Assembly (NCBI GenBank): GCA_017544265.1
Contig: JAFYEM010000018.1
Location: 1-50,794, forward strand
Reading direction: 5' to 3'
Length of the DNA stretch: 50,794 nt
From: Bacteroidales bacterium
GTDB taxonomy: Bacteria; Bacteroidota; Bacteroidia; Bacteroidales; UBA932
Made by a program: the position numbers and the translations under genes. This document shows, piece by piece, positions 27,419 to 34,651 of this stretch. The notes below the pieces were generated by a model. The model did not search any database and was not told the origin of the DNA. It was given only the letters and a program-made list of their open reading frames with translations. Numbering within the stretch: the stretch's first letter is position 1; each line of letters starts with the position of its first letter.

Positions 27419-28690
27419 ATGAAGAATATAGTACTTTTCACAGTTGTCATGCTGCTGACGCTGAGTTGTTTGAAAGAATCTGCGCCAGATGGAGAAAGGG
27501 AGGAGGTCGCCGTGAGGGTAGCCGCGGCCGGGGCGACAAAATCCATAGACCCTCCGGAATCGAGGATTCAGGATGTGAATTTCCTGCTCTTTACTCCTTC
27601 AGGGGTGGCGGAGTGGAGGAAATATTACAGGGACGCCTCCCAGGTATGGGACGGGGGCGCTTATGTGGTGAAACTGTCCCTGCTGAAAGACTGCGACTAT
27701 ACTCTCTGCGTCGCGGCAAATGCGGGAAGGGCGCTATCGCCCAGGACCCTTGACGAAGCGAAGCAGCTGCGGCATTATATGGCCTATCCTGACGAATACT
27801 CCAGGGGAATGCTCATGTCGTCGGTATCAGCAGTCCGCGCCGGCCCCGGGCTGGAGCTGGGCCTTGAACGAAACATGGCTAAAGTGTCTCTGAGGATAGA
27901 CCGAAGCGCCCTTGATAAGGATGTCCGCCTGACGGCAAGGAGCGTCACAGTGGGCGGCTGCCCGTCGTCGGTCACGCCATTCGCCCCGAGCATGGCCCGT
28001 TCAGCCTCGGATATATTCACCAGCGGATTTTCCAAGAGCGACTCCGACGTAAGTGCACTGAATGCGGACGATTCCTTCGCCCTTAGCGGGGAGGTGTCCC
28101 TTTACATACTTGAAAACCTGCAGGGAGATTTGCTCTCAGATGTAACTTCGGACTCCGGTAAAGTATTCACTGATTCCCGCTATGGCGAAGTGTGCTCATG
28201 GGTGGAGATGAAATTCGAATACCATTCCCCTTCGAAGCACACCCGTCCCGGGGAATATCTGATTTACCGTTTCTATCTCGGAGAATCCCTGAATAACTTT
28301 GACGTGCGCCGCAATGTCCATTACAGGATTACGCTCCGCCCGGAAGGAGACGGACTGTCAGAGGACGGCTGGAGGGTGGACAAGGAGGCTATTGAAGACG
28401 AGCCGGCAAAAGTGTTCTTCGACCTCCATCCCTCAGCGTACAATGAGTGCCGCAGCGGAGATGATTTCCGTATCTGGTGCGACATCTCACCCTCGGGCAC
28501 CCCCGTGGAGATAGAGCAGCTGGCATACGATGACCACGAGAATGTGGCGGAACTCTATGACTATACCATAGACCCCGACGGCCACGGCCTGACGATCCAC
28601 ACAAAAAAAGGAGGGTCTGCGTTAGTCTATTTCAACGCCGGCCCTCCAGTAAACCGCGACACCCTCGCACTGCTGGTGATTGATCCCTAG
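27419..28690 (+). CDS. Fimbrillin-associated lipoprotein (Mfa2/DUF4906-like)
   Basis: This 423-residue lipoprotein has signal MKNIVLFTVVMLLTLSC (Cys17). After it come VNFLLFTPSG, LSLYILENLQG-like sequence (VSLYILENLQGD), and LIYRFYLGESLNNFDVRRN, then VHYRITLRPEGDG. These resemble proteins encoded beside Bacteroides fimbrillins (DUF4906 or Mfa2-type anchors). A C-terminal Ig-like region (about 330-423) ends the protein. It starts 14 bases after the first fimbrillin-like gene and is likely co-transcribed. Its last four bases overlap the 3' end of nqrF. The exact pilus role (anchor or tip) is not certain. Confidence 0.65.
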   Translation: MKNIVLFTVVMLLTLSCLKESAPDGEREEVAVRVAAAGATKSIDPPESRIQDVNFLLFTPSGVAEWRKYYRDASQVWDGGAYVVKLSLLKDCDYTLCVAANAGRALSPRTLDEAKQLRHYMAYPDEYSRGMLMSSVSAVRAGPGLELGLERNMAKVSLRIDRSALDKDVRLTARSVTVGGCPSSVTPFAPSMARSASDIFTSGFSKSDSDVSALNADDSFALSGEVSLYILENLQGDLLSDVTSDSGKVFTDSRYGEVCSWVEMKFEYHSPSKHTRPGEYLIYRFYLGESLNNFDVRRNVHYRITLRPEGDGLSEDGWRVDKEAIEDEPAKVFFDLHPSAYNECRSGDDFRIWCDISPSGTPVEIEQLAYDDHENVAELYDYTIDPDGHGLTIHTKKGGSALVYFNAGPPVNRDTLALLVIDP

Positions 28691-29961
28691 CCGCCGAAGT
28701 TGTCGTAGAAGATGCTTTCAGGGGATACACCGAGGGAATCCAGCAGCTGGTTCACGCACTGGGTCATCATGGGCGGACCGCACATGAAGTACTTGATGTC
28801 TTCGGGGGCTTCGTGATCTTTGAGATAGGTCTCGTTCATCACGTTGTGCACGAAGCCGGCGGTATATTTCACACCTGCTGCATCGGCTGCCGGATCCGGA
28901 CGGTCAAGCGCGAGATGGAAGTGGAAATTCGGGAATTCCTTCTCGATTTCCGCGAAATCCTCCAGGTAGAAGGCTTCCACAAGTGCGCGGGCGCCGTAGA
29001 AGAAATGGACCTCGCGTTTTGTCTTCAGAGTCTTGAACAGATGCATGATGTGGCTGCGCAGAGGAGCCATACCGGCACCGCCGCCCACGAAGATGTATTC
29101 CTGGCTGTCGGGATCGTCCTTGGGAAGGAGGAACTCGCCGTAAGGGCCGCTGATCCACACCTTGTCGCCCGGCTTGCGTGAGAAGACGTAGGTCGATGCG
29201 ATTCCGGGAGGCACTCCGGGAACGAACTTGAAGACGCCCTTGGGCTGGCTCCTGTCGAAAGGAGGAGTCGCAATGCGGACATTCAGCTTGATGACGTTCT
29301 TCTCGGCCGGATACGAGGCCATGGAATAGGCACGGATGGTTGGAACGGTGTTCTTGTATTTCAAAGAAGTAATCCCGTATTTCTCCCAGTCGCCCATGTA
29401 GATGTCATCCACGTCCATGTCGGAGAAGTCCGCTTCGTACTCGGGGATGTCAATCTGGATATATTCGCCGGACTTGAATTCGATGTGCTCGCCTTCGGGC
29501 AGACGCACGGTGAACTCCTTGATGAAGGTGGCGACGTTCTTGTTGGAGATGACTTCGCACTCGAGTTTCTTTACGCTCAGGGCGCTTTCAGGAACTGCAA
29601 TCGAGAGATTGTCCTTGACCTTGACCTGGCAGCCGAGTCTCCAGCCTTCCTTTATCTGCTTGCGGGAGAAGAAGCCGGTCTCGGTGGGGAGGATGGTGCC
29701 GCCCCCTTCGGTGACCTGGACCTTGCACTGTCCGCAGTTGGCTTTGCCGCCGCATGCGGAGGGAAGGAAAATTCCATGGTCGGCAAGAGTGTGCATCAGG
29801 TCTCCGCCGGGTGTGGCGGACAGTTCTTTGGAACCCTCGTTGATGGTAATCTTGACCTCGCCGGAAGGGGTGAGTTTGGATTTCACGAACAGCAGGAGGG
29901 CCACCAGCAGCAGCGTCAGGAGCGTGATAACGATAATTGCAAAAAGGATTGTATTTGTCAT
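28687..29961 (-). CDS. nqrF: Na+-translocating NADH:quinone reductase subunit F
   Basis: This 424-residue NADH-oxidising subunit takes electrons from NADH through FAD to a [2Fe-2S] cluster. It has an N-terminal membrane helix (TILFAIIVITLLTLLLVALL), then a ferredoxin domain with SACGGKANCGQC and LGCQ supplying four cysteines. FAD binding is at RAYSMASYP and NADH binding at GGGAGMAPLRSH, and the terminal YDNFGG is characteristic. It is the last gene of nqrABCDEF and overlaps the convergent fimbrillin-associated gene by 4 bp. Confidence 0.97.
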   Translation of the reverse strand: MTNTILFAIIVITLLTLLLVALLLFVKSKLTPSGEVKITINEGSKELSATPGGDLMHTLADHGIFLPSACGGKANCGQCKVQVTEGGGTILPTETGFFSRKQIKEGWRLGCQVKVKDNLSIAVPESALSVKKLECEVISNKNVATFIKEFTVRLPEGEHIEFKSGEYIQIDIPEYEADFSDMDVDDIYMGDWEKYGITSLKYKNTVPTIRAYSMASYPAEKNVIKLNVRIATPPFDRSQPKGVFKFVPGVPPGIASTYVFSRKPGDKVWISGPYGEFLLPKDDPDSQEYIFVGGGAGMAPLRSHIMHLFKTLKTKREVHFFYGARALVEAFYLEDFAEIEKEFPNFHFHLALDRPDPAADAAGVKYTAGFVHNVMNETYLKDHEAPEDIKYFMCGPPMMTQCVNQLLDSLGVSPESIFYDNFGG

Positions 29962-29973
29962 AGTCCCGTCCTC

Positions 29974-30570
29974 CTACAGTGAAATACCCATGAAGGTCAT
30001 GAAGGCCATGCCCATCAGACCCACGGTTATGAAAGTGATGCCGAGGCCTTTGAGAGCCGCCGGAACATTGGAATAGGCCATCTTTTCACGGATTGCCGCC
30101 AGCGAAACGATTGCGAGGAACCATCCGAGGCCGCTGCCTAGAGCATAGACAGAAGCCTCGCCGATGTTTGCGAAGTCTTTCTGCTGCATGAAGAGCGAGC
30201 CGCCGAGGATTGCGCAGTTCACTGCAATCAGCGGAAGGAAAATACCCAGCGAAGAGTACAGCGAGGGGCTGAATTTCTCCACGACCATTTCCACTATCTG
30301 CACGATCGCCGCTATGACAGCGATGAAAATGATGAAACTCAAAAAGCTCAGGTCCACACCGGGCATGAGGGCGTCGGGGGCGAGCACGTACTTATTCAGA
30401 AGGTAGTTGATTGGCAGGGTCACCAGCAGCACGAAAATAACCGCCAGACCGAGTCCTGCAGCCGTCTTTACATTTTTGGATACCGCCAGGAATGAGCACA
30501 TTCCGAGGAAGTACGCAAAAATCATATTATCCACAAAGATGGACTTTACGAACAAGCTTAGATATTCCAT
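29974..30570 (-). CDS. nqrE: Na+-translocating NADH:quinone reductase subunit E
   Basis: This is a 198-residue integral membrane subunit with six predicted helices. [20 protein letters not shown] near the N-terminus and [12 protein letters not shown] in mid-protein are the pseudo-symmetric half-helix regions. Their cysteines coordinate the membrane [2Fe-2S] cluster shared with NqrD in known structures. Length and order are normal, 18 bases after nqrD. Confidence 0.97.
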
Positions 30571-30588: not shown

Positions 30589-31203
30589 TTATTTTTCCTG
30601 AAGGTCTTTCTGAATTGAACGCTGCACCCAGACTATGCACCCGAGAAGTATCAGGGCGAAAGGAGGCAGGATCACGAGGTTGTTAGGCACATAGCCCATC
30701 CAATTGAGTATATTCACTCCGAAGAGGGTGCCGCTGCCCAGAAGCTCGCGGAAAAACGCCACCACGAGCAGAATCAGCCCGTAGCCCGCGCCGTTCGCGA
30801 CGCCGTCCAGGAAGCTCGGCCAGGGCTTGTTGCCTAGGGCGAAGGCTTCGATGCGGCCCATGACGATGCAGTTAGTGATTATAAGGCCGATATAGACGCT
30901 GAGCTGCTTGTCTATGGCGTAGGTCGCTTCGAAGGATTTGAGCACCTGGTCCACCAGAATAACCATCATAGCGACGACGACGAGTTGCACGATAATCCGG
31001 ACCCGGCCGGGGATGGTATTGCGGAGGAGGGACAGAATCAGGCTGGAAATGCCGCAGACTACAATCACGGAGAGGGTCATGACCAGCGCACCTTTAAGGG
31101 TGACGGTAACCGCGAGGGAAGAGCAGATACCGAGCACCAGTACGGTAATCGGGTTGCCCTTGAATATCGGGTTCAGAATGGTTTCTTTAAGTTTTGCGTC
31201 CAT
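30589..31203 (-). CDS. nqrD: Na+-translocating NADH:quinone reductase subunit D
   Basis: This 204-residue six-helix membrane subunit is paralogous to NqrE. Hallmarks are NPITVLVLGICSSLAVT and IGLIITNCIVMGRIEAFAL, containing the cysteines expected to help hold the NqrD-NqrE iron-sulfur cluster. It starts two bases after the nqrC stop, so translation of the two is closely coupled. Confidence 0.97.
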   Translation of the reverse strand: MDAKLKETILNPIFKGNPITVLVLGICSSLAVTVTLKGALVMTLSVIVVCGISSLILSLLRNTIPGRVRIIVQLVVVAMMVILVDQVLKSFEATYAIDKQLSVYIGLIITNCIVMGRIEAFALGNKPWPSFLDGVANGAGYGLILLVVAFFRELLGSGTLFGVNILNWMGYVPNNLVILPPFALILLGCIVWVQRSIQKDLQEK

Positions 31204-31205
31204 AT

Positions 31206-32132
31206 CTATACCTCCTCTGTTTTAGTTTCGCAGCACCCTTCGCCGCAGCAGCCGCAGTTTTGCGAGCAGCAGGTTTCGCCGCAACCGGCGGTGCAGTCGG
31301 TGCTCAGGCAGCATTTCTCGCAGGGGCAGCTGGCGCAGCAGCTGTTCACGCATCCGCTGCAGCAGCAGCTCTCGCCCTGGGGAGCGCATGCGGAATTGGC
31401 GTTGAAATAGCCGGCATAGGCGTGAAGCCAGGTGTCTATAGCCTTGTCCAGGCCCTGTGATGTCATGGTCGCGCCAGTGATGGCGTCTATCTTGTTGTCC
31501 TGTATTTCCTTCCCGGCTTCGTCCTTGGGAGAACCTCCCTTGACTATATCGAATACATTTTCAGAGCCAAAGTCCGCGGTTTCTCCGGAGAACTTTGCCT
31601 GGAAGGCCGGGTCGTCCTTGATTTTGGCGCCGAGGCCAGCCGTTTCCGATTCATGGTCGAAATATGCGCCGAGAATCTTGTCGGAGCCGGTTTCGAAGGC
31701 AATATAGCCCCAGACCGGGCCCCAGAGGCCGGCGCCATAGACGGGCACGACAGTAGAGCCGTTCTTGAACAGGAACACCGGAAGAGCAGGGTTTTCGCCG
31801 CCTTTGATGCTGTAGTTGAGCTTCTTCAGTTCGGAAGGGCTGAACACCTTGCCCTGCTGAAGATCTTCCACCTTGTTGCCCAGGGCGTCCACGGTGAAAG
31901 CCTCTGAAATTTCTTCATCGTAGCGGGCGAGCACTGCGGCATTGCCCATCTTTTCGAAGGAGGCCTTGGTGCCGAATCCCGCCGCGGTCATCATCTGGGA
32001 GATGGTGTCCGCCTTTTCATTGGCTTCCTGCCGCGATTTGAGGGACTGGGAAACGAAGGCCAGGATAGCTGCCACCACAACGACAATAACGGTCGTGTAG
32101 ATGACTGTGTAGATATTGCTGTTAGTATTCAT
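31206..32132 (-). CDS. nqrC: Na+-translocating NADH:quinone reductase subunit C with cysteine-rich C-terminal tail
   Basis: This 308-residue protein has one N-terminal membrane helix (IYTVIYTTVIVVVVAAI) and an FMN-binding domain on the outer face. The flavinylation motif DAITGAT places covalent FMN on Thr222 (ApbE-type Dxx(S/T)GAT). The NQR domain ends near residue 246 (HAYAGYFNAN). A further 62 residues (247-308, bases 31209-31394) contain 20 cysteines in CC, CxC and CxxC patterns, for example CCCSGC, CPCEKCC and CGCCGEGCC, then an acidic end. Ordinary NqrC lacks this. The tail resembles a metallothionein and should face the periplasm. The frame is intact and nqrD follows two bases later. 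Confidence 0.95.
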   Translation of the reverse strand: MNTNSNIYTVIYTTVIVVVVAAILAFVSQSLKSRQEANEKADTISQMMTAAGFGTKASFEKMGNAAVLARYDEEISEAFTVDALGNKVEDLQQGKVFSPSELKKLNYSIKGGENPALPVFLFKNGSTVVPVYGAGLWGPVWGYIAFETGSDKILGAYFDHESETAGLGAKIKDDPAFQAKFSGETADFGSENVFDIVKGGSPKDEAGKEIQDNKIDAITGATMTSQGLDKAIDTWLHAYAGYFNANSACAPQGESCCCSGCVNSCCASCPCEKCCLSTDCTAGCGETCCSQNCGCCGEGCCETKTEEV

Positions 32133-32144
32133 CTCGACTCCTCC

Positions 32145-33272
32145 TTATGCTGTTTTCACTTTGTAACGGCGGTTCATCTTCGCGGATACGACGCAGTGGT
32201 CGATAAGCGGGGCGAAGGTGTTCATCAGAAGGATGGCGAGCATCATACCCTCCATGTAGCCGGGGTTCCAAAGGCGGACCACAACTGCGAGCGCGCCCAC
32301 CAGGAAGCCGTAAATCCATTTGCCGGTTTCGGTCTGGGCAGCGGTCACGGGGTCGGTGGCCATGAATACGGAACCGAAGAGGAAGCCGCCCATCACGAGC
32401 TGGTAGTAGCAGGGAAGTTCAGTGGCGCCGCCGATGTAACCGAGCCAGCCTATGAGCAGCCCTCCGGCAATCGAGGAAACCATGATTTTCCAGGAAGCTA
32501 CTCCGGTCCATACGAGGAGAATGCCGCCGAGCAGAATCGCCACGACGCTGGTCTCGCCGGTGGAGCCGGGGATGAAGCCCCAGAACATGTCCATGAACGA
32601 ATACTGGGAACTCAGGGCGCTGATGCCGCCGTCATGGGCGATTGCCAGAGGGGTGGCCGCGGAAACGGCATCGACACCCTTCGGGGCATGGACCCATACG
32701 GATGAACCTGACATGGATGAAGGATAGGAGAAGAAGAGGAAGGCGCGGGCCACGAGAGCCGGGTTCCAGATGTTCATGCCGGTGCCGCCGAACACTTCCT
32801 TGACGAATATCACGGAGAATGCGGTCGCAAGGGCGAGCATCCACAGTGGAACGTCCACGGGGACAATCAGAGGAATCAGGAAGCCCGTGACGAGGTAGCC
32901 CTCGTTGACTTCTTCTTCGCGTATCTGGGACGATGCGAACTCAATCGCAAGGCCGACCGCGTAGGAAACTACGAACAGGGGGAGCATCTTCAGGAGTCCG
33001 AACCAGAACATCTTCCAGAAGCCCCAGCCAAGTCCGTAGGTAAGGGAGGTCTGAAGGCCGACGTTGTACATGCCGAAAAGGGCTGCGGGAACGAGGGCGA
33101 TAACGACCATGATCATCACTCGCTTGAGGTCTATGCCGTCGCGCACATGGGCTCCGCGGGTGGTCACAGTGCCTGGAACGCGGAGGAAGGTGTCGAAGGC
33201 ATCGACAGAGGAGTGGAGCCAGTATAATTTTCCGCCCTTGTCAAAAAGGGCTGGTTTATTGCCGTCTGCCAT
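32145..33272 (-). CDS. nqrB: Na+-translocating NADH:quinone reductase subunit B
   Basis: This is a 375-residue membrane subunit with about ten helices that carries covalent FMN and forms the sodium path. The FMN threonine is predicted as Thr241 in FIPGSTGETSVVA. GGTGMNIWNPALVARAFLFF and FMATDPVTAAQTETGKWIYG are family hallmarks. The gene lies three bases after nqrA and 12 before nqrC. Confidence 0.97.
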   Translation of the reverse strand: MADGNKPALFDKGGKLYWLHSSVDAFDTFLRVPGTVTTRGAHVRDGIDLKRVMIMVVIALVPAALFGMYNVGLQTSLTYGLGWGFWKMFWFGLLKMLPLFVVSYAVGLAIEFASSQIREEEVNEGYLVTGFLIPLIVPVDVPLWMLALATAFSVIFVKEVFGGTGMNIWNPALVARAFLFFSYPSSMSGSSVWVHAPKGVDAVSAATPLAIAHDGGISALSSQYSFMDMFWGFIPGSTGETSVVAILLGGILLVWTGVASWKIMVSSIAGGLLIGWLGYIGGATELPCYYQLVMGGFLFGSVFMATDPVTAAQTETGKWIYGFLVGALAVVVRLWNPGYMEGMMLAILLMNTFAPLIDHCVVSAKMNRRYKVKTA

Positions 33273-33275
33273 AAC

Positions 33276-34616
33276 TTATGCCATTTCTTTAATCATAAGG
33301 TCTATGCCGGATGCGATGATGGACTGGATTTCGTTCTTTGAAGGGTCCACATAGTCGCAGAGGGCGAGGTCTTCGGGCAGCACTTCATAGATGCCGAATT
33401 TCTCCATTTTCTCGATATCTCCCGCGAGGCAGGCCTTTATCAGATAAATGGGGAAAATGTCCATCGGAGTGACGTCTTCGAAGCATTTTGTCTGCACGAA
33501 AGCGCGCGGCCCGCCGTGCATGTTGGTGTCCATGTCGTATTTCTTTCCGGGGGTGAGCCAGGAGAAATAGCACATGGATGTGGAAAACACGCCGGGACGG
33601 AAGGGCTTTGCCCAGCCGAGAATTTCGCGGTCGGTCCCTTCGCAGAGCAGGGTGAGCTGGCTGTCGAAGAATCCGAGGTATCCGTCATTGGAAAGAATGC
33701 TGCCGGAAAGCACGTCGCCTCCGATGATACGGGTTCCGGGGGCGGCTGCTACGATCTGGCGCAGGGGAGTGCCGGGAAGAGCCTCGACGTAAGCTGCGGT
33801 CGGAGCCATGGGACCGGTGACGGCGACTTTCCTCCAGAGGTCCACCTGTCCGGTGCGGAGCAGGCGGCCGATCGCGGCGGCACCTTCCATAGACACGGTC
33901 CATACGGTCTCGCCTTTGAGAATGGGGGAGATGTGACTGATCTGCACGCCTACGTTGCCAGCGGGGTGCGGGCCGTCCACGACGTGGAGCACTGCGTTCT
34001 CGATTTTGTGGAACGGGCTCTTGGAATAGGCCTTGGCCGAAACGGAAAAATGCACTCCGCCGTCAGAGAGAAGCGAGAGCGCATCGACTGCCTTCTGGAT
34101 GTCCGCAAAACTGCCGCCGAGGGTGAAATCGGTGTCAGGTGCGAGCGGAGCTGTGCTGAATGAAGAAATGAACAGCGCCTTTGGCTTGAGGGCGGGATCT
34201 GCCATGACTCCGTAGGGGCGCTGGACTATGAAAGGCCAGAGACCGGAGGAAAGGAGCAGATTCCTTAGGGATTCTCCGTCAAGTTTTTCAGGGATGTTGA
34301 ACCGGATGCACTCCTGGTTCTGATCTGGGGCTATTACAATTGCAAGGAGTTTACGCTTGTCGCCCCTGACAATCCTTTGGACAAAGCCGCTTACCGGGGA
34401 GGTGAACAGGATGTCCGGATTCTGTTTGTCACAATAGACGGGGCTTCCGGCTTTGACCTTGTCGCCTTCCTTTACAAGCAGTCTCGGTACGAGACCCTTG
34501 AAATCGGTCGGTTTCAGTGCCACTTCATCCGGGACAACCTTCTTCGTGACTTTGAGTTCGGCCTCACCCGAAATCGGAATGTCGAGACCTTTTCTCAAAT
34601 CTAGATTGTTGGACAT
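33276..34616 (-). CDS. nqrA: Na+-translocating NADH:quinone reductase subunit A
   Basis: This 446-residue peripheral cytoplasmic subunit of Na+-NQR is implicated in quinone interaction. The N-terminus has the barrel-sandwich region (GLDIPISGEAEL, LVPRLLVKEGDKVKAGSPVY). Later come RPYGVMADP and the C-terminal SLBB-like region. I chose the ATG at 34616 (MSNNLDLRKG) because the preceding in-frame start is a TTG two codons upstream. It is first in the operon, with a TATCTTCG promoter box 35 bases upstream, divergent from the helicase gene. Confidence 0.96.
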   Translation of the reverse strand: MSNNLDLRKGLDIPISGEAELKVTKKVVPDEVALKPTDFKGLVPRLLVKEGDKVKAGSPVYCDKQNPDILFTSPVSGFVQRIVRGDKRKLLAIVIAPDQNQECIRFNIPEKLDGESLRNLLLSSGLWPFIVQRPYGVMADPALKPKALFISSFSTAPLAPDTDFTLGGSFADIQKAVDALSLLSDGGVHFSVSAKAYSKSPFHKIENAVLHVVDGPHPAGNVGVQISHISPILKGETVWTVSMEGAAAIGRLLRTGQVDLWRKVAVTGPMAPTAAYVEALPGTPLRQIVAAAPGTRIIGGDVLSGSILSNDGYLGFFDSQLTLLCEGTDREILGWAKPFRPGVFSTSMCYFSWLTPGKKYDMDTNMHGGPRAFVQTKCFEDVTPMDIFPIYLIKACLAGDIEKMEKFGIYEVLPEDLALCDYVDPSKNEIQSIIASGIDLMIKEMA

Positions 34617-34651
34617 TATCAATAAATTTTTAGTATTTTAAAAATATCGGG

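Follow-up and report, generated by a model that had tools for sequence, protein, structure and literature searches.

A 20-cysteine C-terminal tail on the sodium-pump subunit NqrC of a Bacteroidales bacterium: a putative metal-binding segment within a family-wide pattern

The NqrC subunit of the sodium-pumping NADH:quinone reductase (NQR) of a Bacteroidales bacterium continues beyond its flavin domain into a tail with 20 cysteines. This tail is a genuine addition to a known enzyme, selected in its long forms, and undescribed in the literature that we searched. The gene was found in a stretch of 50,794 nucleotides, analysed at its full length and called the window here. The tail is one case of a family-wide pattern of Cys-rich or Cys/His-rich tails at a single position of NqrC, and we put at roughly 0.6 the probability that it would act as a periplasmic, metallothionein-like metal-binding segment on the pump.

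The window contains a complete nqrABCDEF operon, which runs on the minus strand from 34622 down to 28687. The neighbours of nqrC all score above their NCBIfam cut-offs, namely nqrA (33276–34622, TIGR01936, with the start codon as given by the ORF tool), nqrB (32145–33272, TIGR01937), nqrD (30589–31203, TIGR01939, 264.6 bits), nqrE (29974–30570, TIGR01940) and nqrF (28687–29961, TIGR01941), each on the minus strand. The nqrC frame itself (31206–32132, minus strand) is open from the ATG at 32132 to the stop codon at 31206–31208 and encodes 308 amino acids; its match to the nqrC model TIGR01938 covers residues 4–243 (profile positions 2–249 of 251) and scores 141.7 bits, slightly below the cut-off of 144. 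A hydrophobic run at about residues 10–30 (32043–32105, minus strand), together with an alignment to the solved chain 7xk3_C that begins at residue 4, predicts an N-terminal transmembrane segment, and residues 135–236 (31425–31730, minus strand) form an FMN_bind domain (Pfam PF04205, 63 bits with a cut-off of 22). Within this domain D216-A-I-T-G-A-T222 (31467–31487, minus strand) was recognised by motif match and alignment as the flavinylation motif, D-x-x-[S/T]-G-A-[S/T] in the wording of an excerpt of PMC12052999; its last residue, T222, is invariant across 40 aligned NqrCs, and the same genome encodes ApbE (PF02424, 216.5 bits). The FMN_bind domain with NqrC-level similarity, the threonine flavinylation motif with a genomic ApbE, and the nqrABCDEF setting all identify the product as an NqrC, and the normal domain with a flavinylation site at Thr222 that the earlier note described is indeed there. 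A C-terminus shortly after the FMN domain is a usual, non-defining trait of NqrC, and in its place this protein has a tail of 63 residues.

The tail extends from N246 to V308 (31209–31397, minus strand); from S247 onward (31209–31394) it comprises 62 residues, 20 of them cysteine, and its final residues are ETKTEEV. The cysteines fall into seven CC, two CxC and three CxxC motifs, and there is not a single F, Y, W or H; the length, the count and the metallothionein-like make-up claimed in the earlier note are all borne out. At a cysteine rate of 1%, at least 20 cysteines in 62 residues would arise by chance with p of about 6e-25. Scoring of 353 kept ORFs from 450 kb of this genome (the window and twenty 20-kb stretches, including one picked for its aroC gene) gave no 60-residue stretch outside the nqrC tail with more than 11 cysteines; the stretch that reaches this number sits in a ferredoxin-like protein that, from its position next to the rnf genes, is taken for RnfB. 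The genome's rnf genes (contig C10, locus L331) coexist with nqr, and its RnfG has no Cys tail; such a tail is therefore not a general trait of FMN subunits of this kind. A search with the tail as query found a single copy in the genome.

An assembly or frameshift artefact is ruled out. Tails with 20 cysteines are also present in three other genomes, on L002 (the same gene as L031, from sheep rumen), L032 (from a bin of SRR12081295) and L052 (from water buffalo reticulum), and because all 20 cysteines are kept in them despite clear synonymous divergence the tail is not an assembly fault, nor is it confined to misassembled sequence. The window tail has no Pfam or NCBIfam match, and a Pfam scan of six tails returned no metallothionein family, including Metallothio_Pro; its weak matches (Keratin_B2_2, LCE, SelP_N and ZrgA, at E values of 0.24–6 only) are taken as effects of composition. 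The matches of the tails among PDB sequences were SD01679p and parkin (E 0.33–0.34) and MCoCC-1 (E 4), and a 13-Cys tail (see below) gave no match to phage records. A c-type cytochrome tail was also considered and rejected, as none of 174 family tails contains the CxxCH haem motif. Searches on NqrC found no account of Cys-rich or metallothionein-like forms in the literature covered, from which most subscription journals are missing, in agreement with the earlier note, whose author knew of no such NQR; a tail of this kind is likewise unmentioned in the available excerpts of PMC4014512, PMC10739449 and PMC8238504.

Our survey of NqrC in the family started from 210 fetched loci, which gave 177 distinct proteins and 174 usable ones; L048 and L098, in which the frame enters other sequence, and L144, truncated by a contig end, were left out. 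Tail cysteines, whose count in homologues had been proposed as a check, number at least one in 104 of the 174 proteins, at least two in 96, at least four in 75, at least eight in 20 and at least 13 in 13, with none in the remaining 70; the loci are mostly best matches to the query NqrC, and these shares are not those of the whole family. Cysteine makes up 13.1% of tail residues versus 0.28% of core residues, and histidine 5.4% versus 0.6%. Several sequence types can be told apart: the 20-Cys type (four NqrCs), a 13-Cys type (eight NqrCs, one of them extended further to 17 cysteines), HCGxC tails with His runs, short HCGxC or CC types, and the tails of L003 and L035, which are made of repeats; A/E-rich and Cys-free tails are also common. 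In genus g16 there are 15 tails in which Cys clusters are followed by HxH runs, an arrangement seen in metal-chelating proteins (L140–L143, L146, L148–L152, L155, L157, L167, L168 and L176).

That long tails depart from the norm, as the earlier note held, is evident from NqrCs of other families in the order, which have tails of at most 10 residues in 39 of 47 cases (20 of the 47 were picked for long frames, L242–L261, and 27 are best matches). One of these outside NqrCs, L224 (family f101, same order), bears a separate and unrelated 74-residue tail with 16 cysteines in CCEKQ-like repeats, and one more, L248, has two tail cysteines. The two long modules keep to NqrC: searched against 398 family genomes, the 13-Cys tail gave five clear matches (E 1e-4 or better), each located at the NqrC of the genome concerned, and the 20-Cys tail gave two, both on NqrC; the other matches listed have E values of 0.0019 or worse (for one genome) and are taken as chance.

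It could be supposed that the segment between the FMN domain and the nqrD ribosome-binding site is mostly neutral, fast-turnover filler, of which Cys/His-rich codons are simply one flavour. Turnover is indeed considerable, as the state of having at least four cysteines changes at least 32 times in a FastTree phylogeny of 223 cores (weak or unsupported branches included), and such a view is also in line with the repeat-made tails, the tails of other make-up and the further Cys/His-rich segment within chorismate synthase. However, none of 566 other ORFs in 81 loci, a set that includes antisense frames, has six or more cysteines within its last 70 residues, and in the two long types, to which this comparison was confined, the cysteines have been kept while synonymous sites diverged clearly. 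In the four 20-Cys tails the cysteines are invariant in 20 of 20 columns versus 14 of 43 other full columns (Fisher p 1.5e-7), and in the eight 13-Cys tails in 13 of 13 versus 6 of 32 (Fisher p 3.7e-7); both TGC and TGT are used at 6 of the 20 and at 6 of the 13 Cys columns, respectively. Tail pN/pS is below 1 in all six pairs of the 20-Cys set (0.19–0.62, with pS of 0.37–0.70) and in all 28 pairs of the 13-Cys set (0.21–0.66, with pS of 0.43–0.82). The conserved cysteines argue for selection on at least the two long tail types, and we regard neutral filler as an unlikely account of the whole.

On a 54-row tree the AU test rejects a single clade for the eight 13-Cys cores (p 2e-5) but not for the four 20-Cys cores (p 0.315). 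Recent swapping of tails is excluded, since tail pS is at least 0.37 in every pair. Tail and core pS are mostly alike, with the tail lower in some pairs (L001–L032, 0.37 versus 0.61; L131–L160, 0.49 versus 0.70; L038–L160, 0.48 versus 0.75), and an older tail exchange, or else many losses, may underlie the pS and tree data.

The acidic tip of the tail, mentioned in the earlier note, is best explained by the translation signal of the next gene, and we set it aside as a functional feature. In the window a Shine-Dalgarno-like GAGGAG of nqrD (31212–31217, minus strand) lies within the codons of E306 and E307. Across the 174 tails, EE is the final pair in 118, and two or all of the last three residues are acidic in 135, and this ending is independent of the tail sequence that precedes it; the usual end codons are GAG GAG GAA TAA or GTG GAG GAA TAA (among the first 40 rows). 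A Shine-Dalgarno-like core is present at the tail end in 166 of 174, the first ATG follows the nqrC stop by 2–3 bases in 148 of 174, and the last four codons contain 237 GAG versus 140 GAA, as compared with 180 GAG versus 389 GAA in the remaining tail. This core, the ATG spacing and the GAG bias together indicate that the NqrC acidic tip is best explained, in large part, as the coding image of the nqrD Shine-Dalgarno sequence. The ATG spacing and the Shine-Dalgarno-like core would also suit a cysteine-sensing leader, in which Cys codons ahead of nqrD slow ribosomes at cysteine shortage and so tune nqrDEF; yet the long types keep the spacing of their cysteines, and other genomes have His-rich or Cys-free tails at this place, and we think such a leader extremely improbable.

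The tail probably binds metal, and its purpose, whether protection, storage or delivery, is the least certain part of this reading. It would lie on the periplasmic end of NqrC, as was expected in the earlier note, by homology to the V. cholerae NqrC chains and in keeping with the phrase 'periplasmic FMN domain of NqrC' in an excerpt of PMC10739449. There its cysteines would stay mostly as thiols and could enclose ions of soft or borderline metals (Zn, Cu(I), Cd, Ag) as metal-thiolate clusters; the tail might in this way lower free metal beside a pump that such ions inhibit, or store metal there. Dissimilar Cys-rich sequences at the same NqrC position, together with L224 in another family, amount to convergence, which we count in favour of metal binding. 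Histidine accompanies cysteine, with a share of 7.1% in tails having at least two cysteines versus 0.8% in Cys-free tails of at least 10 residues, and with two or more histidines in 47 of 96 of the former versus 1 of 36 of the latter, although the association falls short of significance when kinship is taken into account (13 independent pairs, median p 0.125). Counted against metal binding are the lack of a metallothionein-family or solved-structure match for any tail scanned, and the 70 of 174 relatives that manage with a Cys-free tail.

Metal sensitivity of the pump itself is on record, as Ag+ (IC50 20 nM) and Zn2+ (IC50 1 uM) inhibit the Vibrio alginolyticus NQR via thiols and an NqrF cysteine is important in Vibrio harveyi and Porphyromonas gingivalis, according to an excerpt of PMC12682751. 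In the window, NqrF Cys394 (28780–28782, in a CGPP motif) aligns with the corresponding cysteine of the solved NqrF chain 8a1t_F and, to judge from the numbering, is probably the reported Cys377. The metal-sensitive NqrF thiol is cytoplasmic, whereas the tail is expected by homology to be periplasmic; this counts against the proposed reading and leaves direct shielding of the NqrF thiol by the tail conjectural.

A periplasmic location would equally suit a disulfide-bonded tail, in which paired cysteines produce a rigid knot, a stub that resists proteases or a link to a partner protein, and the 20 cysteines are an even number, as are the counts in 44 of the 75 tails with at least four. The other 31 of 75 counts are odd, however, and include the conserved 13-Cys type, CC pairs are abundant, and the His-rich versions are left unexplained. 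DsbB searches gave no match in 100 of 101 genomes of the genus, and VKOR searches none in 177 of 200, the tail's own genome (90.5% complete) being without a match in both; DsbB and VKOR are the oxidases covered. The disulfide option that the earlier note had raised is thereby weakened, and we judge it quite unlikely. More doubtful still, and in our view very unlikely, is a redox relay in which electrons would move from the NqrC FMN to the thiols of the tail and on to periplasmic disulfides or metals; covalent periplasmic FMN is nearby, and gene clusters are known that combine flavinylation with DsbD and small CxC proteins (an excerpt of PMC8238504), but no fixed CxxC pair is common to the tail types, tails are gained and lost while NQR persists, and the His-rich variants are a misfit.

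The same genome contains a second protein with Cys/His-rich growth. Its chorismate synthase (AroC; outside the window, on contig C18, locus L326:1246–2340, minus strand) has an internal insert with 10 cysteines and 14 histidines, flanked by HNDP and NHAGG. An insert containing four or more cysteines was found in 19 of 30 AroC loci, which are the best matches to this AroC and hence a biased set; six are without one, having plain or short loops, and five could not be parsed. In 28 parsed genomes, out of 40 from which both genes were fetched, NqrC has at least two cysteines in 4 of 4 genomes whose AroC has at least four, and otherwise in 7 of 24. Two of the 12 genomes that the script failed to parse were read separately, and with these added (G365, which agrees, and G395, which disagrees) the figures become 5 of 6 versus 7 of 24 (Fisher p 0.026, uncorrected for kinship). 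The insert and these counts mean that the NqrC tail is often alone, yet Cys/His-rich growth is not confined to NQR, and the cause of the tail may not be NQR-specific. The pattern CC..CC..CC has eight matches in this genome, some overlapping, on five contigs, with two in the nqrC tail and two overlapping in aroC. At the sites on contigs C15, C16 and C49 the CC frame is open for 103, 46 and 80 codons; these were rejected as Cys-coding, since at each site a different phase or the opposite strand offers a longer open frame. SEQSEES, SERSEES and SEVEKS stretches occur in four AroC inserts (L358–L360 and L362) and in the NqrC tails L006 and L018; they resemble an intergenic repeat that has been read through into loops and tails of coding sequence.

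Chorismate synthase is an FMN-dependent enzyme, and one may tentatively imagine metallothioneins hung on housekeeping flavoproteins, in place of free-standing ones or in addition to them, with a fast-evolving periplasmic metal buffer on NqrC and a cytosolic one inside AroC, and with tail modules exchanged between NqrC lineages. We hold this wider scheme to be possible and rather unlikely; under it the NqrC tails would amount to a series of natural metal-binding peptides with independent origins. NQR is a central energy pump of these Bacteroidales, and if NqrC tails do bind metal, metal stress in the gut and rumen would be linked to respiratory energy conservation, and many natural metal-binding sequences, largely separate from one another, would be at hand for experimental comparison.

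The closest known systems each share part of this arrangement. The solved NqrC chains 7xk3_C (V. cholerae, 257 residues) and 3lwx_A (199 residues, presumably from Parabacteroides) are the same subunit, with the FMN domain and the threonine flavinylation site, and 7xk3_C has an N-terminal membrane segment as does the window NqrC. Unlike the window NqrC, they stop soon past the FMN-domain match: the matches end at query residues 237–243 and none reaches the Cys-rich tail. Metallothioneins are recognised by about 20–33% cysteine, CxC and CxxC spacing and the absence of aromatic residues, and the tail, with 20 cysteines in 62 residues, has this composition; homology to them was not seen in Pfam, NCBIfam or PDB sequences, where composition filters may hide weak kinship, and the tail is not a stand-alone protein, being fused to NqrC with no second genomic copy. 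Those of vertebrate type are stand-alone cytosolic proteins with some 20 cysteines in about 61 residues, CC, CxC and CxxC motifs and no aromatics; the NqrC tail shares their cysteine number, length, spacing and lack of aromatics, but is fused to a membrane enzyme and is without a sequence match to them. Bacterial metallothioneins of the SmtA/BmtA type (Pfam Metallothio_Pro) are small Cys/His-rich metal binders, whereas the NqrC tails are fused, belong to many unlike sequence types and, in the six scanned, lack a Pfam match. A further parallel is PcoB, an outer-membrane efflux protein whose disordered, His/Met-rich N-terminal region is required for copper resistance, according to an excerpt of PMC12509749. 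As proposed for the NqrC tail, this is a disordered segment rich in metal ligands on an envelope protein and very likely faces the periplasm (PMC12509749, same excerpt); the PcoB segment is His/Met-rich, N-terminal and part of an efflux protein, whereas the NqrC tails are Cys-rich, C-terminal and carried by a respiratory pump.
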